Position numbers and translations under genes: made by a program. Shown here piece after piece: positions 3 to 10,521 of a stretch of 10,521 bases of DNA; within the stretch, counting starts at the first letter, position 1, and each line of letters starts with the position of its first letter. The DNA is taken from the NCBI GenBank assembly GCA_020056545.1, contig JAGVHM010000149.1, positions 1 through 10,521 on the forward strand, read 5' to 3'. The stretch comes from a bacterium. Lineage in GTDB: Bacteria; Desulfobacterota; Deferrimicrobia; Deferrimicrobiales; Deferrimicrobiaceae. The notes below the pieces were generated by a model, which had not been told where the DNA came from, did not search any database, and saw only the letters and a program-made list of their open reading frames with translations.

Positions 3-1361
3 GCCCCTGCGGCTCCGGCGCCCGTCTTCACCAAGGAGATGGCCGACGCCATCGCCAACCAGAAGATCGCCATGGACACCATCTGGACTATGATCGCCGC
101 CTTCCTGGTCTTCTTCATGAACCTGGGCTTCGCCCTGGTGGAGTCTGGTTTCTGCCGGGCCAAGAACACCGTCAACATCCTCTTCAAGAACTTCGTGGTG
201 TTCGCGGTCTCCTCTCTCGCGTTCCTGGTCCTGGGCTTCGGGCTCATGTTCGGGGACGGGAACGCGCTCTTCGGCCTCAAGGGCCTCTTCTTCGCCACGG
301 GGGCCGACAACAGCCCGGCATTGGGCGACGCCTACAAGGGTGTGTACCAAGCCCTCAACTGGACGGGCGTGCCGCTCTGGGCGAAGTTCTTCTTCCAGCT
401 CGTCTTTGCCGGAACGGCTGCCACGATCGTATCGGGAGCCGTGGCCGAGCGGATCAAGTTCAAGGCGTTCGTCATCTTCACGCTCTTCATGGTGGGGGTC
501 ATCTACCCCATCGGCGGGCATCTGATCTGGGGAGGCGGCTGGCTCGCGAGCAAGGGCTTCCTCGACTTCGCCGGATCAACGGTCGTCCACTCCATCGGCG
601 GCTGGGCGGCCCTGGCAGGCATCATCATGCTCGGGCCCCGGATCGGCAAATACGGGCCGGGCGGCAAGGTGAACGCAATCCCCGGCCACAGCATGACCTC
701 GGCCGCCATCGGCGTGTTCGTCCTGTGGTTCGGATGGTTCGGGTTCAACCCCGGCTCCACAATGGCCGCGGACGGGCCCTCCATCGCCCATATCGCCACC
801 ACTACCAACATCGCCGCTGCGGCCGCGACCGTCGCCTCTATGATCACGGCCTGGATGTTCCTGGGTAAGCCCGACCTCGGGATGGCCCTGAACGGGTGTC
901 TCGCGGGCCTCGTGGCGATCACCGCCCCCTGCGCCTTCGTGAGCGTCCCCAGTTCCCTTATCATCGGCATCATCGCCGGTGTCCTGGTGGTCCTGGCGGT
1001 CTTTTTCTTCGACCGGATCCGGATCGACGACCCGGTGGGCGCCACCGCGGTTCACCTGGCCAACGGGGTGTTCGGAACCATCGCACTGGGCCTTTTCGCC
1101 GACCCCACCGTCTGCCCGGCCGCAGCGGCGGCCAAGCCCGGGCTTTTTCTGGGCGGCGGCATGGCCCAGCTCGGTCCACAGCTCCTGGGAGTCGCGCTGA
1201 TCGCCGTGGTGGTCTTCGCCCTCTCGATGGCCTTCTGGTTCGTGACAAAGCTCCTCTCCAACGGCATCCGCGTGAGCGGGGAGGAGGAGGTGGAAGGCCT
1301 GGACTACCACGAGCACGGCAACGCGGCTTATCCCAACTTCCAGCTGGTTGAGAGGAGGTAG
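3..1361 (+). CDS. amt: Ammonium transporter, AMT1-like (5' end outside window)
   Basis: Inner-membrane channel that moves ammonium inward as NH3. The frame is open to the window's left edge, and the residues before the first ATG (position 39) are Ala/Pro-rich (APAAPAPVFTKE). This resembles the linker after the signal peptide of the second transporter at 3213, so the true start is probably upstream; the AAGGAG at 33-38 also touches that ATG too closely to be a ribosome site. Counted from ATG 39, the segment MNLGFALVESGFCRAKNTVN (about 27-46) is typical of the cyanobacterial/plant AMT1 type. The conducting-pore histidines appear at 184 (STVVHSIGG) and 339 (TAVHLANG), with QLVFAG, IWGGGW and GWFGFNPGS as the gate and binding-site segments. 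The C-terminal tail (GIRVSGEEEVEGLDYHEHG) is the PII-docking type. The PII gene starts 6 nt downstream, implying direct control. Family assignment is very secure; the subtype is my reading of the motifs. Confidence 0.95.
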   Translation, partial: APAAPAPVFTKEMADAIANQKIAMDTIWTMIAAFLVFFMNLGFALVESGFCRAKNTVNILFKNFVVFAVSSLAFLVLGFGLMFGDGNALFGLKGLFFATGADNSPALGDAYKGVYQALNWTGVPLWAKFFFQLVFAGTAATIVSGAVAERIKFKAFVIFTLFMVGVIYPIGGHLIWGGGWLASKGFLDFAGSTVVHSIGGWAALAGIIMLGPRIGKYGPGGKVNAIPGHSMTSAAIGVFVLWFGWFGFNPGSTMAADGPSIAHIATTTNIAAAAATVASMITAWMFLGKPDLGMALNGCLAGLVAITAPCAFVSVPSSLIIGIIAGVLVVLAVFFFDRIRIDDPVGATAVHLANGVFGTIALGLFADPTVCPAAAAAKPGLFLGGGMAQLGPQLLGVALIAVVVFALSMAFWFVTKLLSNGIRVSGEEEVEGLDYHEHGNAAYPNFQLVERR

Positions 1362-1706
<345 letters not shown>

Positions 1707-1722
1707 CATGTAAGGGAGACCC

Positions 1723-2982
1723 GTGAATCCTGCGGACCCGATCGCTTTAGGCCTTGCCCTCCCGTTCTGGGCGGTCCTCCCCTTCCTGGGCTTTCTCCTG
1801 GCCATCGCTCTCTTCCCTTTGACCGCTCCCCGGTTCTGGGAGCGGCACTTCGGGAAGGTGAGCGCGGCCTTCGGTGTCCCGGTGGCTGGGTGGTTCCTCG
1901 TTATTGCCCCGCGCGAGCTGTCTCACACGGTCCTCGAGTACGCCTCCTTCCTCGTCCTGTTGGGCAGCCTCTTCACGATCTCCGGGGGGATCCTGGTCCG
2001 AGGGACAATCCGGGGTACGCCGGCGGTCAACTGCGCTTTCCTGGCCGCGGGGGCGGTGCTCTCCAACCTGCTGGGAACGACCGGCGCGTCGATGCTGCTC
2101 ATCCGGCCGCTCCTTCGCGCCAATTCGGCGCGGAAGAGATCGGCCCACGTCTACGTTTTCTTCATCTTCGTCGTGGCCAACATCGGGGGGGCGCTCACCC
2201 CTATCGGCGACCCGCCGCTCTTCCTCGGCTACCTGAAGGGGGTCCCGTTCTTCTGGACAGTCCGGAACCTGTGGAGCTTCTGGTTTACCGCTACGGTGAT
2301 CGTCATCGGGATATTCTACCTTCTCGACCGCATGGCTGTGCGATCGGAGGGGGAGGACAGGCGCGCGGAGACGTCGGATTCATCGGGAAGAAAGCCGCTC
2401 ATGCTGGCAGGGAAGCGAAACTTCCTCCTCCTGGGGACGGTCATCACCGCCGTCTTCCTTCCCGCACCCGTCAGGGAGACGGTGATGCTGGCGGCGACGG
2501 CGCTCTCGGTGTGGAAGACCCCGGCATGGATTCGCCGGGAGAACGAGTTCACATACCACCCGATCAAGGAGGTAGCGATCCTGTTCGCCGGGATCTTCGC
2601 GACGATGATCCCGGCCCTCCTCATCCTGAAAGCCCGAGGCGGGGAGCTGGGCGTCACGGAACACTGGCACTTTTTTTGGGCGTCGGGGATGCTCTCCAGT
2701 TTCCTGGATAACACCCCAACGTATCTTACATTCTTCTCCCTTGCGCAGGGGCTGGGGGGAACTGCAGACATTGTCGGAATCCCCGCCCCGATCCTGCGGG
2801 CGATCAGCGCGGGAGCGGTCTTCATGGGAGCGAACACCTATATAGGGAATGCGCCCAACTTCATGGTGAAGGCGATTGTGGAGGCCTCCGGGGTGCGGAT
2901 GCCCTCCTTCTTCGGCTTCATGGCCTATTCGGGCGCGGTCCTGCTCCCCGTCTTCGCTGTTATTACGTGTCTTTTCCTGTAA
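1723..2982 (+). CDS. Citrate/sodium:proton antiporter-like permease (CitMHS_2-type)
   Basis: A 419-residue, strongly hydrophobic membrane protein with about 11-12 predicted helices, of the ion-transporter superfamily often annotated as sodium:proton antiporter or putative citrate transporter. Visible motifs are SNLLGTTGASMLLIRPLL (from about 114), ANIGGALTPIGDPPLFLGYL (about 152-171), SSFLDNTPTYLTF (about 325-337) and GANTYIGNAPNF (from about 369). The paired GDPP and GNAPN-type motifs belong to the two re-entrant regions of this fold. The start is GTG with AAGGGAG about 5 nt before it. It follows glnB by 16 nt and is probably co-transcribed with amt-glnB. Substrate is unknown: a cation/proton antiporter balancing ammonium uptake or a dicarboxylate carrier are both possible, and the sequence does not decide. 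Confidence 0.82.
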   Translation: MNPADPIALGLALPFWAVLPFLGFLLAIALFPLTAPRFWERHFGKVSAAFGVPVAGWFLVIAPRELSHTVLEYASFLVLLGSLFTISGGILVRGTIRGTPAVNCAFLAAGAVLSNLLGTTGASMLLIRPLLRANSARKRSAHVYVFFIFVVANIGGALTPIGDPPLFLGYLKGVPFFWTVRNLWSFWFTATVIVIGIFYLLDRMAVRSEGEDRRAETSDSSGRKPLMLAGKRNFLLLGTVITAVFLPAPVRETVMLAATALSVWKTPAWIRRENEFTYHPIKEVAILFAGIFATMIPALLILKARGGELGVTEHWHFFWASGMLSSFLDNTPTYLTFFSLAQGLGGTADIVGIPAPILRAISAGAVFMGANTYIGNAPNFMVKAIVEASGVRMPSFFGFMAYSGAVLLPVFAVITCLFL

Positions 2983-3006
2983 GGGGGGCAGGGAATCCTG
3001 GCCCCC
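2983..3006 (+). terminator. GC-rich hairpin after the amt-glnB-permease operon
   Basis: Immediately after the TAA stop, ggggggcagg (2983-2992) can pair with cctggccccc (2997-3006) around a GAAT loop: nine pairs with one G-G mismatch. Position fits a transcription end, but no T-run follows, so this is at best a weak or assisted terminator. The palindrome at 3021-3044, which ends in TTTT, could contribute. Confidence 0.35.
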
Positions 3007-3020
3007 TCCCAAATTCACTA

Positions 3021-3044
3021 AAAATGTCGTTTTTACGACATTTT
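3021..3044. promoter_or_regulatory. Perfect palindrome, possible activator-binding site
   Basis: AAAATGTCGT (3021-3030) is mirrored exactly by ACGACATTTT (3035-3044) around TTTT. The half-site TGTCG/CGACA with a 6-nt gap is typical of a dimeric DNA-binding protein. Its centre lies about 146 bp upstream of the start point expected from the sigma-54 element at 3153, a usual distance for an enhancer-binding protein. It does not match the enteric NtrC consensus, so the binding protein is unnamed. A bidirectional terminator for the upstream operon is the main alternative. Confidence 0.5.
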
Positions 3045-3152
3045 CGACGTATTGCTGCGCTCGCGCCACTCTCATTTCCGGGATCTTCCATCGGTTAGTT
3101 AATCCTTATCCCGAAAGAGGTTACCGGCAGCAGGCCGGGCGGGATGGTCGCC

Positions 3153-3168
3153 TGGCACACCTCCTGCT
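3153..3168 (+). promoter_or_regulatory. Sigma-54 (-24/-12) promoter of the second amt gene
   Basis: TGGCACACCTCCTGCT matches the RpoN consensus TGGCACG-N4-TTGC(A/T). The GG (3154-3155) and GC (3166-3167) dinucleotides have exactly the required spacing, and TGGCAC is perfect. The predicted start of transcription is near 3179, leaving about 34 nt of leader that contains the GGGAGGA ribosome site. Nitrogen-limited sigma-54 control is well known for amt genes; its use here is inferred from the match and position. Confidence 0.75.
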
Positions 3169-3212
3169 TACCATTTTCCCGGTACTTTTACCCTTTTCAC
3201 CGGGAGGAACCC

Positions 3213-4610
3213 ATGACACATAGAGCAAGGCTCCGCTGCCTGGCACGCGTCGTACTTCCGATCGTCTTACTCCTGGCCGCCGGCGCGTTCATGCCTGCGA
3301 TGGCGGCGGAAGAGAAGGCGCCGGAAGCTGTACCGGCGGCGCTGCCCGCGACCGCGGCCGCCTCCGCGGCTCCCGACGCTACGCCGGCCGTCAACACCGG
3401 CGACACGGCGTGGCTGCTCTTCTCGGCGGCGCTCGTCATGCTCATGACCCCGGGACTGGCGCTTTTCTACGGGGGGATGGTCCGGAGGAAGAACATCCTC
3501 GGGACGATCATGCAGTCCTTCATCATCATCGGCCTGATCAGCGTGGAGTGGATCCTCGTGGGCTACAGCTTCGCTTTCGGGCCGGACCGCTGGGGGATCA
3601 TCGGGGACCTTTCCTGGTTCGCCCTGAGCGGCGTCGGGCTGACCCCCTTCAAGGAGTACGCGGCGACAGTGCCGCACCAGGCGTTCATGATCTACCAGAT
3701 GATGTTCGCGGTCATCACGCCAGCGCTGATCACCGGGGCATTCGCGGAGCGGTTCAAGTTCTCCACCTTCCTCGTGTTCACCCTCCTCTGGGCGCTGCTG
3801 GTCTACAACCCCGTGGCGCACTGGGTCTGGGGGATCGGGGGATGGATCCGAAACCTGGGGGCGCTGGACTTCGCCGGGGGCACGGTCGTACACATCACCT
3901 CCGGGGTCAGCGCCCTCGCCGCGGCGCTGGTCGTCGGAAAGCGAAAAGGGTTCGGCACCGAGATCATGGCGCCTCACAACCTCCCGATGACGGTGCTCGG
4001 GGCGGCGATCCTCTGGTTCGGCTGGTTCGGATTCAACGCGGGAAGCGCCCTCGCGGCGGGAGACCTGTCCACGAGCGCGTTTGTCGCCACTCACTCGGCG
4101 GCGGCGATGGCGACCCTTTCCTGGGTGTTCGCCGAGTGGATCCATCGCGGCAAGCCGACCGTTCTCGGCGCCGCATCCGGATGCGTCGCCGGTCTGGTGG
4201 CGATCACTCCGGCATCCGGGTTCGTTCAGCCGATCGGCGCTCTCTTCATCGGCCTGGCGGCCGGCGTCATCTGCTATGCCGCGGTGATGCTGAAAGGGAG
4301 ATTCGGATACGACGACTCGCTGGACGTCGTCGGCGTGCACTGTGTCGGCGGGTCCCTTGGGGCACTGGCAACCGGGTTGCTCGCCACGACGGCGGTCAAC
4401 GCCGCTGGCGCCAACGGCCTGCTGCATGGTAACCCCAAACTGCTCGCCATCCAGGCGCTGGCGGTCGTCGTCGTTCTCGCGTACTCCTTTATTGTGAGCT
4501 TCCTGCTGCTGAAGGTCCTCGACAAGACAATGGGGCTGCGGGTGGATAAGGAGGACGAAATTCAGGGGCTCGACCTCTCGATGCACGGAGAGGCCGGGTA
4601 CAACTGGTAG
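3213..4610 (+). CDS. amtB: Ammonium transporter, AmtB-type, with signal peptide
   Basis: A 465-residue ammonium channel. The ATG at 3213 follows GGGAGGA (3202-3208). An upstream ATG at 3144 in the same frame was not used because it would precede the sigma-54 promoter. Residues 1-31 form a signal peptide (Arg-rich start, VVLPIVLLLAAGAF core, AMA cleavage-like end), followed by an Ala/Pro-rich linker of about 30 residues before the first helix; this extension is longer than in E. coli AmtB. Channel features include FYGGMVRRKNI, the gate segment YQMMFAV, WVWGIGGW, GWFGFNAGSA, and the twin pore histidines at 227 (TVVHITSG) and 376 (GVHCVGG). The tail GLRVDKEDEIQGLDLSMHGE is the PII-binding type. 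It is a distinct subtype from the transporter at the window start and is not a recent duplicate. No PII gene follows it, so the upstream glnB product may serve both. Confidence 0.96.
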   Translation: MTHRARLRCLARVVLPIVLLLAAGAFMPAMAAEEKAPEAVPAALPATAAASAAPDATPAVNTGDTAWLLFSAALVMLMTPGLALFYGGMVRRKNILGTIMQSFIIIGLISVEWILVGYSFAFGPDRWGIIGDLSWFALSGVGLTPFKEYAATVPHQAFMIYQMMFAVITPALITGAFAERFKFSTFLVFTLLWALLVYNPVAHWVWGIGGWIRNLGALDFAGGTVVHITSGVSALAAALVVGKRKGFGTEIMAPHNLPMTVLGAAILWFGWFGFNAGSALAAGDLSTSAFVATHSAAAMATLSWVFAEWIHRGKPTVLGAASGCVAGLVAITPASGFVQPIGALFIGLAAGVICYAAVMLKGRFGYDDSLDVVGVHCVGGSLGALATGLLATTAVNAAGANGLLHGNPKLLAIQALAVVVVLAYSFIVSFLLLKVLDKTMGLRVDKEDEIQGLDLSMHGEAGYNW

Positions 4611-4653: not shown

Positions 4654-5406
4654 ATGGCGCTGAACCGGCCCATCCCCGTTTCCCTTTTCTTCACCTGCCT
4701 GGCCGACGCTTTTTACCCGGACGTCTGCTTCGCCACCGTCGCCGTCCTCGAACGGTTCGGCGCGGAGGTGCGCGTCCCGCTCTCCCAGACGTGCTGCGGC
4801 CAGCCCGCGTTCAATTCCGGCAACCGGAAGGAAGCCGGGAAAATGGCCAGGAAGTTCCTGCAGGCCTTCGCCGGGGAAGGGTACATCGTCACCCCCTCCG
4901 GCTCCTGCGCGTCCATGGTCAAGAACGAATACCCCGCGCTTTTCCGGGACGAGCCGACGATGGTTGCGCTTGCTTCTTTTGCAGGCGAGCGTACCTATGA
5001 GCTATCCCAGTTTCTCGTGGACGTACTGGGCGTGACGGACCCGCAATCGTCGTTCCGCGGCAAGGTCACCTACCATGACTCCTGCCACCTGAGGCGGGGC
5101 CTCGGCGTGTTCGAGGCGCCGCGAAAGCTGCTGCGTTCCATCCCCGGGGTCAATCTCGTGGAGATGGAAGACAGCGACCGGTGCTGCGGCTTCGGCGGAG
5201 TATTCTCCATCAAGTACCCCCACATCTCCTGCCGCATGGCCGAAGACAAGATCGAGCGGATTCTCGCGACGGGGGCCCAGTTCGTCACCTCCGGGGACAT
5301 CGGGTGCCTGATGAACATCGGCGGGATGATCTCCAGGTCCGGATACCCCGTGAAACCGATTCACCTGGCCCAGATCCTCGCCGGTAACTTCGAGGTCCCA
5401 TCCTGA
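4654..5406 (+). CDS. lutA: L-lactate oxidation iron-sulfur protein LutA (CCG domain)
   Basis: First subunit of the LutABC complex that oxidises L-lactate to pyruvate in many bacteria. The 250 residues match the family length. There are two cysteine-rich CCG repeats: TCCGQPAFNSGN with C47-C48, plus C85, and RCCGFGG with C178-C179, plus C145 (YHDSCHLRRGLG) and C219. Such repeats bind an Fe-S cluster, as in heterodisulfide reductase HdrB and glycolate oxidase GlcF. The N-terminal VSLFFTCLADAFYP is the normal LutA beginning, supporting the ATG at 4654. The stop shares one base with the lutB start (TGATG), so the genes are translationally coupled. No lactate permease or LutR-type regulator is in the window. 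An equivalent role in another 2-hydroxy acid oxidation cannot be excluded. Confidence 0.93.
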   Translation: MALNRPIPVSLFFTCLADAFYPDVCFATVAVLERFGAEVRVPLSQTCCGQPAFNSGNRKEAGKMARKFLQAFAGEGYIVTPSGSCASMVKNEYPALFRDEPTMVALASFAGERTYELSQFLVDVLGVTDPQSSFRGKVTYHDSCHLRRGLGVFEAPRKLLRSIPGVNLVEMEDSDRCCGFGGVFSIKYPHISCRMAEDKIERILATGAQFVTSGDIGCLMNIGGMISRSGYPVKPIHLAQILAGNFEVPS

Positions 5407-6827
5407 TGGAGCCGCTTTCGCGATTTTTCTACCGCCGCTCCGAAAAGGCGCTCTCCGACGCGACGCTCCAGGCCTCCATTTCCAGGACGACCGGAAAGTT
5501 CGTTGGAGCCCGCGCGGACGCCGTGGCCGCCTTCCCCGGCTTCGAGACCGCACGGGACGAGGGCTCCCGGATCAAGAGAGAGACGCTGGACCGCCTCGAC
5601 CACCACCTCGGCCGTTTTATCGACGAGGCGGAAAGGCGCGGCGCCGTCATCCATGCGGCGCGGGACGGGGCGGAAGCTCGCGAGATCGCGACCCGTATCG
5701 CGAAGGAGGAAGGGGTAACGCTTGCCGTCAAGTCGAAATCGATGGTCGGCGAAGAGGTGGACCTTACCGGTGCGCTGGAGGCCGCGGGCGTGGAGGTTGT
5801 GGAATCCGACCTCGGGGAATTCATCGTCCAGCTGGCGGGGGAAACGCCCTCCCATATCATCGCACCGGCGGTCCACAAGACGCGGGAGCAGGTCTCCAAG
5901 CTCTTCGTGGAAAAGCTGGGCGAGCCGTACACCGATAAAATCCCGGAGCTCGTGGCCATCGCGCGGAGGCGCCTGCGGGAGAAGTTCCTTTCAGCCGGGA
6001 TGGGAGTGAGCGGCGCCAACTTCCTGTGCGCGGACACCGGTTCCATAGCGCTTGTGACGAATGAGGGAAACGGACGGATGGGGACGACCCTGCCCCGCGT
6101 CCACCTCGTCGTGGCCGGGATCGAGAAGGTCATCCCGCGGCTTTCGGACCTTCCCGTCTTCCTGCGCCTGCTGCCCCGCAGCGCGACGGGCCAGCCGATC
6201 TCCACCTACGTCTCCGTGCTGACCGGCGTAAAGCGGCCGGAGGATCCCGAGGGGCCGGAAAAACTCCATATCATACTTCTGGACAACGGCAGGAGCGGAA
6301 TCCTGAAGGGGAAGTACCGCGACATACTCAAGTGCATCCGGTGCGGCGCGTGCCTGAACATCTGCCCGGTCTACCAGAGCGTCGGAGGGCACGCCTACGG
6401 CTGGACCTACCCCGGCCCGATCGGCTCCGTGCTGACGCCGCTCATGACCGGCCTCGCCGAAGGAGTGCCCCTCGCCAACGCCAGCACCCTTTGCGGCGCT
6501 TGCGCGGACGTCTGCCCGGTCAAGATTCCCATCCCCGGGCTTCTGTTGGAGCTGCGGGCGGACGAGCGGGACCGGGGGCTGAAAGACCCGGCCGAGGTTT
6601 TCGGGATGAAGGGCTACGCCGCCGTGATGAGCCGCGCGGGGATACTGGAGGCGCTTGAGCGGATAGCCGGCGTGATCTCCAGTGTTTTTTTGAAGGAAGG
6701 GAAGGCCCCCTGGCTTCCGTTCAGGTTCTCCGGCTGGACCGACCGCAGGGACTTCCCCGCGCCCGCACCCCAGCCGTTCCGCAAGCTCTGGAAGAAGCAA
6801 CGGGGGATCCGTCCATGGAACCGGTAG
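5406..6827 (+). CDS. lutB: L-lactate oxidation iron-sulfur protein LutB
   Basis: Largest subunit of the LutABC complex, 473 residues. The N-terminal two thirds is a LUD domain, with SKSMVGEEVDL, TPSHIIAPAVH and ADTGSIALVTNEGNGRM as recognisable blocks. Two [4Fe-4S] motifs follow: CIRCGACLNICPVY (cysteines 310, 313, 316, 320) and CGACADVCPVKIPIP (cysteines 363, 366, 370, with the isolated Pro-linked cysteine pattern of ferredoxin-like domains). The C-terminal tail ending near FRKLWKKQRG is usual for LutB/YkgF. The ATG overlaps the lutA stop and GAGGT lies about 9 nt upstream inside lutA. The 3' end overlaps lutC by 13 nt. The product presumably passes electrons from lactate towards LutA or the membrane chain; this is inferred from the family. 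Confidence 0.95.
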   Translation: MEPLSRFFYRRSEKALSDATLQASISRTTGKFVGARADAVAAFPGFETARDEGSRIKRETLDRLDHHLGRFIDEAERRGAVIHAARDGAEAREIATRIAKEEGVTLAVKSKSMVGEEVDLTGALEAAGVEVVESDLGEFIVQLAGETPSHIIAPAVHKTREQVSKLFVEKLGEPYTDKIPELVAIARRRLREKFLSAGMGVSGANFLCADTGSIALVTNEGNGRMGTTLPRVHLVVAGIEKVIPRLSDLPVFLRLLPRSATGQPISTYVSVLTGVKRPEDPEGPEKLHIILLDNGRSGILKGKYRDILKCIRCGACLNICPVYQSVGGHAYGWTYPGPIGSVLTPLMTGLAEGVPLANASTLCGACADVCPVKIPIPGLLLELRADERDRGLKDPAEVFGMKGYAAVMSRAGILEALERIAGVISSVFLKEGKAPWLPFRFSGWTDRRDFPAPAPQPFRKLWKKQRGIRPWNR

Positions 6828-7465
6828 GCCGCAAGGAAGAACTGCTCCGCCGAATCGCGGTCGCGTTGCGGGGACACGAAGCAATAAAATCCGCATCCGG
6901 CGCCACGGCGGGCAGGGAAGCGGCACTGAGCGTTGCGGACCGGATCGCGAGATTCCGGAACATGTTCGAGTCGCAGGGCGGCAATTTTCTGGCGGGTCCT
7001 TCCCTGGATCCGCTGCTTCCCGAGCTTGGGGAGGCGCTGCGTATTTCGGGGGTGACGGCGCTCTTTTCCCCCCGGGGAGACGAACGCGCACGGCTGGTCG
7101 CGGAAACCCTGGTGCCTTTCGGTCCGTTCAGGCTGGCGTCCCCCGGCGAGATCCGCCAACTGTCCGCGCCGTCGTCGGCGGGATTCCAGACCGCGGAATT
7201 CGCCATCGCCGAAACGGGCACGATAGTTCAATCCGGGCAAAAGGGGAAAACGCTGCTCCCGGGCCTGATATCCGACGTCCACGTCGCCATTCTCTCGCCT
7301 GCCGCCTTCGTGGACAGGATGGAGGAGTGCCTCGCGGCGCTTTCGGAAGATCTTCCCCGTACCATTTCCTTCATAACGGGGCCAAGCCGCACCGGCGACA
7401 TCGAGCAGACGCTTACGATCGGCGCGCACGGTCCGAAGAAAGTGATCGCAGTCCTCCTTCCTTGA
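6815..7465 (+). CDS. lutC: Lactate utilization protein LutC (LUD domain)
   Basis: Third member of the Lut complex, 216 residues. It consists of a short helical N-terminus and a LUD domain with GVTALFSPRGDE, TAEFAIAETGTIVQSGQKGK (from about 126), SDVHVAIL and the C-terminal GPSRTGDIEQTLTIGAHGPK (about 189-208), all standard for LutC/YkgG. No metal-binding cysteines are present, as expected. It starts inside lutB (13-nt overlap) after a GGGGGA stretch, the usual arrangement for a co-translated complex. The lut operon ends here; the next genes are on the opposite strand. No hairpin with a T-run was found after the stop. Confidence 0.93.
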   Translation: MEPVGRKEELLRRIAVALRGHEAIKSASGATAGREAALSVADRIARFRNMFESQGGNFLAGPSLDPLLPELGEALRISGVTALFSPRGDERARLVAETLVPFGPFRLASPGEIRQLSAPSSAGFQTAEFAIAETGTIVQSGQKGKTLLPGLISDVHVAILSPAAFVDRMEECLAALSEDLPRTISFITGPSRTGDIEQTLTIGAHGPKKVIAVLLP

Positions 7466-7600: not shown

Positions 7601-7921
7601 TTACTTCTTGCCGTGCTCCGCGGCGAGGAACTCCACTATCTTTGTGGCCTCAGCGTCGGAGATAAAGTCCGCTTTCTTCCCTTGCATGGATTTGACGATC
7701 TCCGCCCACTTTTCCTTCGATTCATGGCGGACGGTAGCTCTGTCCAACCCATGGCATACGCCGCACTTCTGCTCGAACAGTGCTTTCCCCTCAACCGCAG
7801 CCGAAACCGCGGGGGCGGGCGGCGGGGCAGCCGGCTTGGGCGGCTCGGACTTTGAGCATCCCAACGCGAGGACCACGAAAAGCATTACGACAACAACGGA
7901 GATACCGTCGCGAACACGCAT
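7601..7921 (-). CDS. Small lipoprotein cytochrome c (one heme)
   Basis: A 106-residue secreted electron carrier. Residues 1-22 are a lipoprotein signal ending in the lipobox LALGC, so the mature protein is probably anchored in a membrane facing the periplasm. A Pro/Ala-rich tether (PPKPAAPPPAPA) follows. The heme site is CGVCHG, and the methionine of KSMQGKK is the probable sixth ligand. The ribosome site AAGGAGG (plus 7930-7936) lies 8 nt before the ATG. It faces the ttuB-ttuA genes divergently and converges on lutC. It could accept electrons from a respiratory enzyme; no partner is shown by the sequence. Confidence 0.9.
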   Translation of the reverse strand: MRVRDGISVVVVMLFVVLALGCSKSEPPKPAAPPPAPAVSAAVEGKALFEQKCGVCHGLDRATVRHESKEKWAEIVKSMQGKKADFISDAEATKIVEFLAAEHGKK

Positions 7922-7997: not shown

Positions 7998-8003
7998 TAT
8001 AAT
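7998..8003 (+). promoter_or_regulatory. -10 box of the ttuB promoter, probably leaderless
   Basis: A perfect TATAAT ends 8 nt before the ATG at 8012, so the transcript would begin within a few bases of the start codon. No ribosome site precedes that ATG and no clear -35 is seen at the usual spacing. The box lies beside the -35 of the divergent cytochrome promoter. Confidence 0.5.
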
Positions 8004-8011
8004 CGTTGCTC

Positions 8012-8209
8012 ATGATCCGCGTTCGCATGCCGCAGAAGAAACAGGAACTGGAAGTCCCCGGCCCCAGGCGCGTGTCGGACATCCTGGCCGATGCAGGGGT
8101 CCGACCGACCACTGTGATAGTGACGCACGGGAAGAAGCTGCTCACCAGGGATCAGAGGGTCGAGGACGGGGAAACCATCGAGATCATCTCCGTCGTGTCC
8201 GGGGGGTAG
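8012..8209 (+). CDS. ttuB: Ubiquitin-like sulfur carrier protein, TtuB/ThiS/MoaD family
   Basis: A 65-residue protein with the beta-grasp sulfur-carrier pattern: MIRVRMPQKKQELEV, a helix (RRVSDILADAG), VTHGKKLLTRDQRVEDGETI, and a C-terminal VVSGG. The terminal Gly-Gly is the residue pair that an E1-like enzyme adenylates and converts to a thiocarboxylate. ThiS and MoaD share this form, but the adjacent ttuA, 6 nt downstream, identifies it as the likely sulfur donor for tRNA thiolation. ATG 8012 was chosen because the only earlier in-frame start is a TTG at 8006, close to or before the predicted transcript start. The activating enzyme (TtuC/MoeB-like) is not in the window. Confidence 0.85.
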   Translation: MIRVRMPQKKQELEVPGPRRVSDILADAGVRPTTVIVTHGKKLLTRDQRVEDGETIEIISVVSGG

Positions 8210-8215
8210 CCTCCG

Positions 8216-9145
8216 ATGAAATGCAAGCGATGCCGCAGGTCCGAGGCGGCGGTCGACCTCCCTAGTCACAATTCCGCCTTTTGCCCCGAATGCTTCTTCG
8301 TGTTTTTCCGCAGGCAGGTTGAGGAAGGGATCCGGAAGTTCCGGATGCTTTCTCCGTCCGACCGCGTGCTGGTCTGCGTCTCGGGCGGAAAGGACAGCCT
8401 TGTGCTGTGGGACATTCTGTCGGAGCTGGGGTTCCGCACGGAGGGGTTGCATATCGACCTTGGGATCGATGGATACTCCGCCCGCTCCCGCGAAAAGTCG
8501 CTTGCATACGCCGTTTCCCGCGGGAAGGAGCTCATCGTCGTGGACCTGCGCGCCGAGGGGGTTCCTATCCCTGCGGCGGCTAAACGGTCGAGCAAGGAAG
8601 AGTGCGCGGTCTGCGGCACGGTCAAGCGGTACTTTTTCAACCGGATCGCGGCGGAGCGGGGCTTCACGGCCGTCGCCACGGGGCACAATCTCGACGACGA
8701 GGCGGCGCGCCTGCTGGGTAACCTGCTCCATTGGGACAGCGACCATCTTTCCCGCCAGCATCCCCTGCTCCCCGAATCGGCGGATGGGCTCGTGCGAAAA
8801 GTGAAGCCGCTATGGCGGGTGAGCGAGATGGAGACGGCGGCGTACGGGTTCCTGAAGGGGATCGACTACGTGACGGAGGAGTGCCCGATGAGCGAGGACG
8901 CCACCTCTCTTGTATACAAGAAAGCGCTCTCCCACATTGAAGACGAGATGCCCGGCACCCGCCGCCGCTTCTACCAGGGCTTCCTCCATCAGAACCGGGA
9001 CGTTCCTAAGAACTCGGTAGCCCTTGACCAGGGGGAAGAAACGCCGCCCGTTAAATGCATCTCATGCGGCGCACCCACGTACACCGAAATCTGCAGCTTC
9101 TGCCGCCTGAAGGAAAAAGTTACTAAAACCCGGGGACGTTCTTAA
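8216..9145 (+). CDS. ttuA: tRNA 2-thiolase TtuA (TIGR00269-type, PP-loop and [4Fe-4S])
   Basis: Transfers sulfur to C2 of ribothymidine 54 in the tRNA T-loop, giving s2T54. Domains in order are an N-terminal zinc finger (C3, C6, C23, C26), the ATP PP-loop SGGKDS (56-61), the cluster cysteines C130 and C133 (CAVC) with C223 (EECPMSE), the motif TGHNLDDEA (155-163), and a C-terminal zinc finger (C281, C284, C293, C296). C130 and C133 match the Thermus thermophilus numbering and C223 differs by one. Two oddities come from the repeat family: residues 260-267 (NRDVPKNS) are encoded by a repeat copy, and the last residues (KTRGRS) and the stop lie in another copy. All functional residues remain, so the enzyme is probably active. 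The gene is coupled to ttuB (6-nt gap). A wobble-uridine (Ncs6-type) target is less likely given trmI next door. Confidence 0.9.
   Translation: MKCKRCRRSEAAVDLPSHNSAFCPECFFVFFRRQVEEGIRKFRMLSPSDRVLVCVSGGKDSLVLWDILSELGFRTEGLHIDLGIDGYSARSREKSLAYAVSRGKELIVVDLRAEGVPIPAAAKRSSKEECAVCGTVKRYFFNRIAAERGFTAVATGHNLDDEAARLLGNLLHWDSDHLSRQHPLLPESADGLVRKVKPLWRVSEMETAAYGFLKGIDYVTEECPMSEDATSLVYKKALSHIEDEMPGTRRRFYQGFLHQNRDVPKNSVALDQGEETPPVKCISCGAPTYTEICSFCRLKEKVTKTRGRS
8993..9016 (+). repeat. Dispersed REP-like repeat, copy 2, inside ttuA in frame
   Basis: AACCGGGACGTTCCTAAGAACTC occurs here and again at 10066-10088. It contains the core GGGACGTTC (8997-9005). It is read in frame as NRDVPKNS in the linker between the TtuA catalytic domain and its C-terminal zinc finger, and introduces no stop in this frame. 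Confidence 0.85.
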
Positions 9146-9222
9146 ACTTTTAAAAAGCAGGGGCATTTAATAAACTTTTTATCACCCCCTGTGATGTTAA
9201 GTTAAGGAACGTTCCCAAGTTA
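9126..9222. repeat. Inverted pair of the dispersed repeat (REPIN-like hairpin)
   Basis: Copy 3 (plus, core GGGACGTTC at 9133-9141) and copy 4 (minus, core variant GGGAACGTTCC at 9206-9216) face each other. The arms 9126-9151 and 9197-9222 align without gaps at 18 of 26 positions, plus two positions that would form G-U pairs in RNA. Inside lie two smaller stems that compete with each other: CAGGGG (9158-9163) with CCCCTG (9186-9191), and TAAAAAG (9151-9157) with CTTTTTA (9175-9181). The ttuA stop codon (9143-9145) is inside the left arm. The remaining bases up to trmI carry only its ribosome site. Two inverted copies in one unit is the REPIN arrangement. Confidence 0.75.
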
Positions 9223-9250
9223 TTAAGTTACTGATCGTCAGGAGCAACAG

Positions 9251-10042
9251 ATGGACAGCCGGAATCCGAGGGGGCCGTTGCGGGCGGGCGAGGATATCAT
9301 CCTTGTTGACCCGAAAGGCGAGGAGCACCTGCTGACGCTCACGCCGGGGAAGCCCATCGGGACGCACCGCGGGAACATCCTCCACGACGACATCATCGGG
9401 AAGCCGGACGGAAGCCGCGTGTGGACCGCGCGGGGCGCGGAGTACCGGGTTTTCCGGCCGACGTTCAATCAATACATAATGAACCTCAAGCGCCACGCCC
9501 AGATCATCTATCCCAAGGACATCGGCCCGATCCTGCTGTGGGCAGACGTCTTCCCGGGGGCTACCGTGATCGAGGCGGGTATCGGCTGGGGAGCGCTGAC
9601 GATCAAGCTGCTGGAGGCAGTTGGACCCACGGGGCACATCACCTCCTACGAAATCCGGGAAGACTTCGCGGAAAGTGGGAAAAAGACCGTGTCGCGCTTC
9701 CTTGGGGAGTGTTCGAACCTTGAAGTCAAGCTGCGGGACATTTACCAGGGGATCGAGGAAAAGGACGTGGACCGGATCGTCCTCGACCTCCCGGAGCCGT
9801 GGCGTGTCGTTGCGCACGCCGGCGGGGCGCTGGTCCCGGGGGGAATTATTCTCTCCTACCTACCCTCAACCGTGCAGGTCAAGCAGATGGTCGACAGCGT
9901 CAACGAACATGGATCTTTCAGCGAGCCAGAGGTGTTCGAGGTGATCCATCGCCCCTGGCACGTCAAGGGCCTCTCCGTCCGCCCCGTCCAGTGGATGTTT
10001 TCCCACTCGGCGTTCATCATCACCTGCCGAAAAATCACTTAA
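9251..10042 (+). CDS. trmI: tRNA (adenine-58-N1) methyltransferase TrmI
   Basis: SAM-dependent methylation of A58 in the tRNA T-loop, normally by a tetramer. The 263 residues fit the family. An N-terminal beta domain is followed by RPTFNQYIMNLKRHAQIIYPKD (69-90 area), the SAM motif EAGIGWGALT (108-117), the acidic SAM-ribose contact YEIRED (133-138), and the catalytic segment LDLPEPW with D179. YLPSTVQV (from 203) and the C-terminal RPVQWMFSHSAFIITCRK complete the fold. AGGAG (9240-9244) lies 6 nt before the ATG. It follows ttuA, separated only by the inverted repeat pair, and modifies a neighbouring T-loop base. Its stop codon falls on the first bases of a downstream repeat copy. Confidence 0.94.
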   Translation: MDSRNPRGPLRAGEDIILVDPKGEEHLLTLTPGKPIGTHRGNILHDDIIGKPDGSRVWTARGAEYRVFRPTFNQYIMNLKRHAQIIYPKDIGPILLWADVFPGATVIEAGIGWGALTIKLLEAVGPTGHITSYEIREDFAESGKKTVSRFLGECSNLEVKLRDIYQGIEEKDVDRIVLDLPEPWRVVAHAGGALVPGGIILSYLPSTVQVKQMVDSVNEHGSFSEPEVFEVIHRPWHVKGLSVRPVQWMFSHSAFIITCRKIT

Positions 10043-10088
10043 AACCTGGGACGTTCTGCCTAAGAACCGGGACGTTCCTAAGAACTCC
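10040..10088 (+). repeat. Dispersed REP-like repeat, copies 5 and 6 in tandem
   Basis: Two direct copies with cores GGGACGTTC at 10048-10056 and 10069-10077, 21 nt apart. The first begins with TTAAAACCTGGGACGTTC, whose TAA is the trmI stop. The second repeats copy 2 for 23 nt and contains, on the minus strand, the stop codon (10078-10080) of the transposase-like gene. No other gene or signal is seen in this spacer. Confidence 0.85.
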
Positions 10089-10521
10089 CGCTCGACGGAC
10101 CCGATGATCTCAGTAAATATCCGCCGCAACCCTCTGTGATACCCAGCCATCGACATATATGTGAAATGGGGGCCTTCATTTCTGATCGGCAGGCCCGTAA
10201 AACATCCCGTCTCGCATGGACTTCGGCATACCCTCTGCTTCGGCCCAATATTTTCTCTGCCGGAATTCCGGTTTCGGCGGAAACACCGGCAAGGATAGCG
10301 AAAAATTTGTCGGGCGGCCGCACTTCTAGAGGCGGTCTGTTTTCCTGCGATTCAGAGGAATCGATGAAAGACAACTCTATCCCTGTTTCGCAACGTATCC
10401 CGAGCCCACTCAACCGGCATCCCTCCTCCATAAGAGTGTGATAGTGGATTTTCCAGTTCAATCCTCCATGCCCGGAAAAAAATTCCTGAAGCAATCCAAG
10501 ATCCATCCATCCTGAATCGTC
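10078..10521 (-). CDS. C-terminal part of a probable REP-associated (RAYT, Y1/IS200-like) transposase with DnaA-like domain
   Basis: The frame is open to the right edge, so the start and any HUH/Y1 catalytic domain lie outside the window. An internal ATG at 10506 is unlikely to be the true start. The first visible residues (DDSGWMDLGLLQEFFSG) resemble the stretch that follows the Y1 domain in deltaproteobacterial RAYT proteins. The last third (VSAETGIPAEKILGRSRGYA, then EVHARRDVLRACRSEM, then APISHICRWLGI) resembles DnaA domain IV, a DNA-binding helix-turn-helix seen at the end of such transposases. Its stop lies inside repeat copy 6, and the gene-beside-repeat layout is typical of RAYT loci. 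Base use is slightly less GC-rich than the neighbours. A remnant of an inactive element is possible. Family assignment rests on memory of motifs, not a search. Confidence 0.6.
   Translation of the reverse strand, partial: DDSGWMDLGLLQEFFSGHGGLNWKIHYHTLMEEGCRLSGLGIRCETGIELSFIDSSESQENRPPLEVRPPDKFFAILAGVSAETGIPAEKILGRSRGYAEVHARRDVLRACRSEMKAPISHICRWLGITEGCGGYLLRSSGPSSGSS

Follow-up and report, generated by a model that had tools for sequence, protein, structure and literature searches.

We propose that the DNA stretch analysed here (10,521 nucleotides, referred to as the window at its full length) very probably carries an operon for coordinated modification of the tRNA T-loop, in which the sulfur carrier TtuB, the thiolase TtuA and the methyltransferase TrmI would provide s2T54 and m1A58. 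This reading is built on the observed genes and motifs, on phylogeny, on partner genes elsewhere in the genome, and on a gene order and a co-occurrence of TtuA and TrmI that extend to other genomes.

The ttuB-ttuA-trmI locus and its products

Three intact genes, all on the plus strand, make up the locus. The first, ttuB (8012..8209, from the ATG at 8012 to the stop ending at 8209), encodes a 65-residue ubiquitin-like sulfur carrier with the C-terminus ...SVVSGG. It is followed after a gap of 6 nt (8210-8215) by ttuA (8216..9145, ATG at 8216, stop ending at 9145), encoding a predicted tRNA U54 2-sulfurtransferase of 309 residues, which is composed of an N-terminal LIM/zinc finger, a PP-loop, a CxxC with a third cysteine and a C-terminal zinc finger. 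The third gene, trmI (9251..10042, ATG at 9251, stop ending at 10042), encodes a predicted tRNA m1A58 methyltransferase of 263 residues. Hence, the arrangement described in the earlier note, a Gly-Gly carrier 6 nt upstream of an intact TtuA and then TrmI, is borne out by coordinates and domains. The ttuA-trmI spacer of 105 nt is not tight and contains a repeat dimer (see below), and the stretch 9118-9250 has a predicted fold of -42 kcal/mol (z -4.8). From the gene spacing we infer co-transcription of all three genes, and the spacer hairpin could uncouple ttuA from trmI. A TATAAT at 7998-8003, ending 8 nt upstream of the ttuB ATG, would yield a nearly leaderless transcript if used; a consensus promoter scan called none.

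In the remainder of the window, a P-II gene and an ORF that has no NCBIfam match lie between two ammonium transporter genes (39-4610). LutABC-like lactate utilisation genes (4654-7465) come next and, on the strand opposite to these, a small cytochrome c family gene (7601-7921), which by eye is also found upstream of ttuB in another locus (L011).

TtuA was assigned through domains, structure matches, residues and a tree. The closest solved structure is Thermus TtuA (5gha, 3.8e-86, residues 1-303), as compared to 3.9e-20 for NcsA (6scy), and the Pfam model TtuA_LIM_N is matched at 34.2 bits (cut-off 27). Ser55, Asp59, Lys137 and Asp161 are described as essential in Thermus TtuA (PMC7138817), and the aligned S56, D60, K137 and D161 of the window protein are identical. 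The PP-loop motif SGGxDS is present, and the C-terminal zinc finger (C281, C284, C293 and C296) is invariant among 13 close rows. C130, C133 and C223 align to the Fe-S cluster cysteines of Thermus TtuA, in the ligand numbering that we assume for that protein, with Cys at all three positions in 69 of the 69 rows compared. A structure predicted from the shallow 13-row alignment reached a mean pLDDT of 54 and was set aside.

In a tree of 76 rows with midpoint rooting, the window TtuA is placed inside a 62-row clade together with Thermus and P. horikoshii TtuA (support 100/95); NcsA and an Undinarchaeales protein occupy a separate branch, the placement of several archaeal rows including NcsA being unsure due to their long branches. 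Clustering with the wobble-uridine Ncs6 enzymes, which the earlier note had named as an outcome that would refute its reading, is not observed; the protein groups with characterised TtuA, NcsA lying outside. The NCBIfam model for Pyrococcus TtuA (NF049949, cut-off 450) gives 248.8 for the window protein, 292.8 for Thermus TtuA and 542.4 for PH0300, a cut-off that does not define TtuA, as the characterised Thermus protein is also below it, and TIGR00269 (cut-off 62.75) places the window TtuA below (54.3) and Thermus TtuA above (65.9).

It is very unlikely that this TtuA is a U34 thiolase like archaeal NcsA or eukaryotic Ncs6, with trmI as a chance neighbour. The proteins belong to the same superfamily and have the PP-loop, CxxC, zinc fingers and a ubiquitin-like donor in common, and the NcsA model matches the window TtuA (2.7e-29, 102.3 bits) and likewise Thermus TtuA (105 bits). 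The reported target of NcsA/Ncs6 is U34 (PMC4048286, PMC6225789), whereas the window TtuA is located on another branch. The conserved trmI neighbourhood outlined below also argues against a wobble-uridine role. MnmA is the usual U34 thiolase, and in the genome of the window only weak matches to it were detected, none above cut-off, as a U34 role for TtuA would have it; however, this genome is 62% complete, and all 7 near-complete ttuA-bearing genomes of the family have MnmA above cut-off.

The ttuB product matches Pfam ThiS (28.6 bits, cut-off 22.5), falls below the cut-off of the thiamin ThiS model TIGR01683 (21.9 bits, cut-off 37.45) and has Thermus TtuB as its closest solved structure (5ztb, 5.5e-11). 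A separate ThiS-family match is present on contig C126 of the same genome, and since a second, stronger ThiS-family match besides TtuB is found in 8 of 8 family genomes, TtuB need not serve thiamin. With the Pfam ThiS model (E <= 0.001), TtuB itself was detected in 5 of the 8; the G154 copy is off the contig, and the G027 and G226 copies score lower. In L124, L125, L126, L127, L130 and L133 (families f38 and f40), the TtuB upstream of ttuA ends in RG, KG or TG, not GG. Alternatively, TtuB may be chiefly a protein modifier or a donor to another pathway, with a regulatory reason for the adjacency to ttuA, which we consider very improbable. TtuB is reported to be conjugated to TtuA lysines in Thermus (PMC4048286), and 7 of 8 family genomes have a Prok-JAB match (E <= 0.001), which is above cut-off in just 2 of 8. 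The stronger ThiS-family match elsewhere in all eight genomes, and the location of ttuB within -4 to +45 nt of ttuA, seen in 30 of 58 loci, speak against this alternative. For trmI, the assignment through Pfam (GCD14, 93.2 bits, cut-off 26; TrmI-like_N, 63.4 bits, cut-off 24) is in agreement with the closest solved structure, Rv2118c (9.2e-61).

An activating enzyme and a T54 methylase are not in the window, as the earlier note had remarked, and both were found elsewhere in the genome: one ThiF-family (ThiF/MoeB-like) E1 on contig C25 (257.5 bits) and TrmFO on contig C15 (529.7 bits, cut-off 428.65). An E1 is present in 11 of 11 genomes searched, this one counted, and of 13 genomes searched for TrmFO, 10 have it above cut-off, including 6 of 8 family genomes; in G064 (99% complete), TrmFO above cut-off was not found. 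The trmFO of G226 starts and then runs into a 100-N gap, and a loss in that genome was dropped, since the partial gene ends at the gap. The neighbours of the E1 gene on C25 (L001), a class-V aminotransferase family gene and a ThiI-domain gene that also has an NFACT-R_2 domain, may form a sulfur-relay cluster with it. A further tie between T54 methylation and thiolation may exist in L132, the short contig C92 of G217, which carries ttuA and, ~3 kb away, the end of a trmFO gene.

For the organism of the window, s2T54 and m1A58 are predictions, with chemistry, position and order of events drawn from the Thermus work. The E1-like enzyme of C25 would adenylate and thiocarboxylate the Gly-Gly tail of TtuB, and TrmFO of C15 would methylate U54. 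Using ATP and a [4Fe-4S] cluster bound by C130/C133/C223, TtuA would adenylate C2 of U54 and insert the TtuB-borne sulfur at this position, while TrmI would methylate A58, which pairs with base 54, as in Thermus, where this methylation speeds thiolation. Compared to the s2T54 pathway of Thermus thermophilus (TtuA, TtuB, TtuC, TtuD and TrmFO) and its TrmI, the enzymes, essential residues and carrier tail are alike, and an E1 and TrmFO are likewise present in the genome. In contrast to Thermus, where we take these genes to be dispersed, carrier, thiolase and A58 methylase adjoin in the window.

Gene order and co-occurrence across genomes

In a phylum sample of 247 genomes, TtuA was called at E <= 1e-40 in 58, and the order survey comprised the window and 57 other TtuA loci. 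ttuB is located upstream of ttuA in 31 of these 58, at -4 to +45 nt in 30 and at 804 nt in one; in G154 the contig begins inside ttuA, leaving ttuB out of view. Directly 3' of ttuA, trmI is found in ten of the 58 TtuA genomes, namely 8 of 8 of the window's family (f1) as well as G056 and G092, and it does not adjoin ttuA in the other 48. TtuA and TrmI were both not found in G203 (96% complete), the ninth genome of this family in the sample. Beyond the phylum sample, the ttuB-ttuA-trmI order recurs, among the matches listed, in L002, L004 and the actinomycetote L007, L003 being the same contig as G127 and as such in the sample already. Of the best 80 loci in the TtuA scan of a contig collection, only L002-L012 match most or the start of TtuA well, the remainder being largely PP-loop proteins of other kinds. 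The order is therefore not unique to this genome, where the earlier note had named uniqueness as an outcome that would refute its reading.

Measured to the first profile position, the ttuB-ttuA gap is 1-10 nt in the window's clade. The ttuA-trmI gap of the 12 other distinct cassette loci amounts to 2-25 nt in eight, with an overlap in two, 119 nt in L004 and 235 nt in L115, and by the same measure to 111 nt in the window (105 nt to the ATG). The genes further downstream vary: a 5-formyltetrahydrofolate cyclo-ligase family gene is located 3' of trmI in G056 and G092, and a proteasomal ATPase followed by a Pup-ligase family gene in L007 (an Actinomycetota MAG; 5765-11388). In actinobacteria, trmI usually has proteasomal ATPase and Pup-ligase genes as neighbours; L007 has these too, with ttuB-ttuA-trmI ahead of them, whereas in the window's family a RAYT-like gene lies 3' of trmI.

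In a 55-row tree of TrmI, including the genomes of 40 non-cassette loci, the cassette copies are not one group. Four changes of the cassette label are needed, at least three of them forced by well-supported branches, although three label changes may equal one gain and two losses. In family f21, which the TtuA tree places as sister to the window's clade, ttuB and ttuA are together and trmI is elsewhere. The evidence leans towards a ttuA-trmI linkage that arose repeatedly, with one old linkage followed by losses as the alternative.

TrmI, called at E <= 1e-15 under the same genome handles as in the TtuA search and among those listed, is present in 76 of the 247 sampled genomes and in 55 of the 58 with TtuA (~18 expected), with 21 genomes having TrmI alone. 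The association yields a Fisher p of ~1e-33 when genomes are treated as independent, ignoring kinship and temperature; by family, 17 have TtuA, 21 TrmI and 15 both (p ~2e-10, with the total set to 87 families, the highest number seen). At this threshold TrmI was not found in three TtuA genomes, G206 (97% complete), G217 (82%) and G239 (68%). Three genomes of family f28 (G028, G100 and G180) pass the TtuA E-value, yet fall outside the Thermus/Pyrococcus TtuA clade; without them, TtuA is present in 55 genomes and TrmI in 52 of those. Hence, the TtuA distribution is almost nested in that of TrmI. According to work on Thermus, m1A58 promotes thiolation (PMC6418473, PMC7912444), and a one-sided nesting of TtuA in TrmI is expected if m1A58 gates thiolation as it does there. 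The genetic link between the two modifications that was proposed from the window is thereby backed by co-occurrence and conserved order alike. Counting against the operon reading are the 48 TtuA genomes in which trmI does not adjoin ttuA, the three TtuA genomes without a TrmI match, G203, the TrmFO result in G064, the NCBIfam scores below cut-off, the spacer hairpin, the 62% completeness of the window's genome and the chance that the label changes on the TrmI tree reflect a single gain followed by losses.

A repeat element and a RAYT-like gene at the locus

The repeat AACCGGGACGTTCYTAARAACT occurs 32 times in the genome of the window (<=3 mismatches), with 0 matches for the reversed control. 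One copy is located inside ttuA (8993..9014, plus strand) and is translated as NRDVPKN, within the linker that precedes the C-terminal zinc finger. An inverted dimer of the repeat (9132..9216, ends approximate, plus strand), a predicted hairpin, provides the last ttuA codons and the stop and extends into the ttuA-trmI spacer, and two more copies (10048..10086, plus strand) lie directly 3' of trmI. The C-terminal part of a RAYT-like (Y1_Tnp) transposase gene follows (10081..10521, minus strand), convergent with trmI and cut by the window end. This partial ORF has no Pfam or NCBIfam match and was recognised via relatives, of which one was scanned, the full-length L172 gene (Y1_Tnp 39.1, cut-off 23). 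A RAYT-like gene is convergent 3' of trmI in 7 of the 8 family genomes with ttuA, the window's counted. The tie between repeat and gene is not strict, as L115 has the gene and one core at the locus, and L002 a partial gene and no core.

A 9-base core of the repeat is found within the ttuA coding sequence at 6 of the 10 cassette loci examined in the window's clade, the other four being without a core there; three of the six encode NRDVPKN-like and three GTFLN-like peptides. Among close TtuA homologues, 107 of 120 have a linker parsable by pattern, and 26 of the 107 carry such a peptide, NRDVPKN-like in 17 and GTFLN-like in 9, never both, corresponding to two reading frames. No such peptide occurs in the first 250 residues of any of the 120. 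In 20 of the 218 contigs of the genome plus the window, 5 of 17 repeat cores lie in called genes. A HypF-family gene (L235:5544-7967, contig C31 of the same genome) contains the repeat in frame, as HQNRDVPKN, between its YrdC and Kae1-like parts, and is an apparent second case of linker insertion by the repeat. That REPs can lie inside coding regions and can flank RAYT genes is known (PMC3733652), and the present case is similar in having short repeats within coding sequence and near a RAYT-like gene. It differs in that the window repeat is found in one linker, in many relatives and in two frames.

Growth temperature and biological meaning

Temperature was estimated from IVYWREL content with a formula that we take to be 937F - 335, on gene calls obtained by seeded training (G+C-rich loci). 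The estimates are 49 C for the genome of the window (~40,000 residues) and 51 C for G226 (~109,000 residues), above those for E. coli (36-37) and Deinococcus (28), with an index that is coarse, giving 94 for a Thermus plasmid and spreading from -2 to 53 over seven single family loci. Other cassette loci reach 97 (G056) and 55 (G092). The (E+K)/(Q+H) ratio of 2.7 is near that of the Thermus plasmid (2.5), compared to 1.3 in E. coli and 1.1 in Deinococcus. The 16S G+C content is 57.1% in the relative G027, the sole 16S gene found in nine genomes searched, and 54.4% in E. coli; a value of 57.1% is low for a thermophile. A homologue at 81% identity is named Ca. Deferrimicrobiota, and Ca. Deferrimicrobium has been described from boreal peatland (PMC9386147), the tie of the window to this group being one protein name at that identity.

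The proxies lie between mesophile and thermophile, and the host may be mesophilic or moderately warm-growing. The thermophilic ancestor suggested in the earlier note is neither supported nor excluded. The cassette may represent ordinary thermal adaptation of a moderate thermophile or of an heir of one, which is compatible with the operon reading and which we regard as a real, if rather doubtful, possibility; the two genome estimates, the Thermus-like ratio and the value for the cassette carrier G056 agree with it, and the 16S G+C of the one relative, the peatland origin of Ca. Deferrimicrobium and the coarseness of the temperature index count against it.

A review lists m5s2U54 from named thermophiles "but not from mesophiles" (PMC6313347), and neither the ttuB-ttuA-trmI order nor s2T54 in mesophiles was found described in the titles and abstract openings of the papers listed. 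The enzymes of the proposed T-loop operon are ordinary and known; what is of value is their arrangement and conserved linkage, together with the nested distribution. The conserved ttuA-trmI linkage in other lineages lends evolutionary support to the promotion of thiolation by m1A58 that was found in Thermus. Tentatively, and at somewhat less than even likelihood, we suggest that a non-thermophilic uncultured family makes s2T54 and m1A58 from one operon, that thiolation would have a role outside heat, and that ttuA and trmI may have been joined repeatedly owing to a gating of thiolation by A58 methylation. A conserved operon in a possibly non-thermophilic family, combined with the nested TtuA distribution, puts the claim that s2T54 is confined to thermophiles to a direct test.
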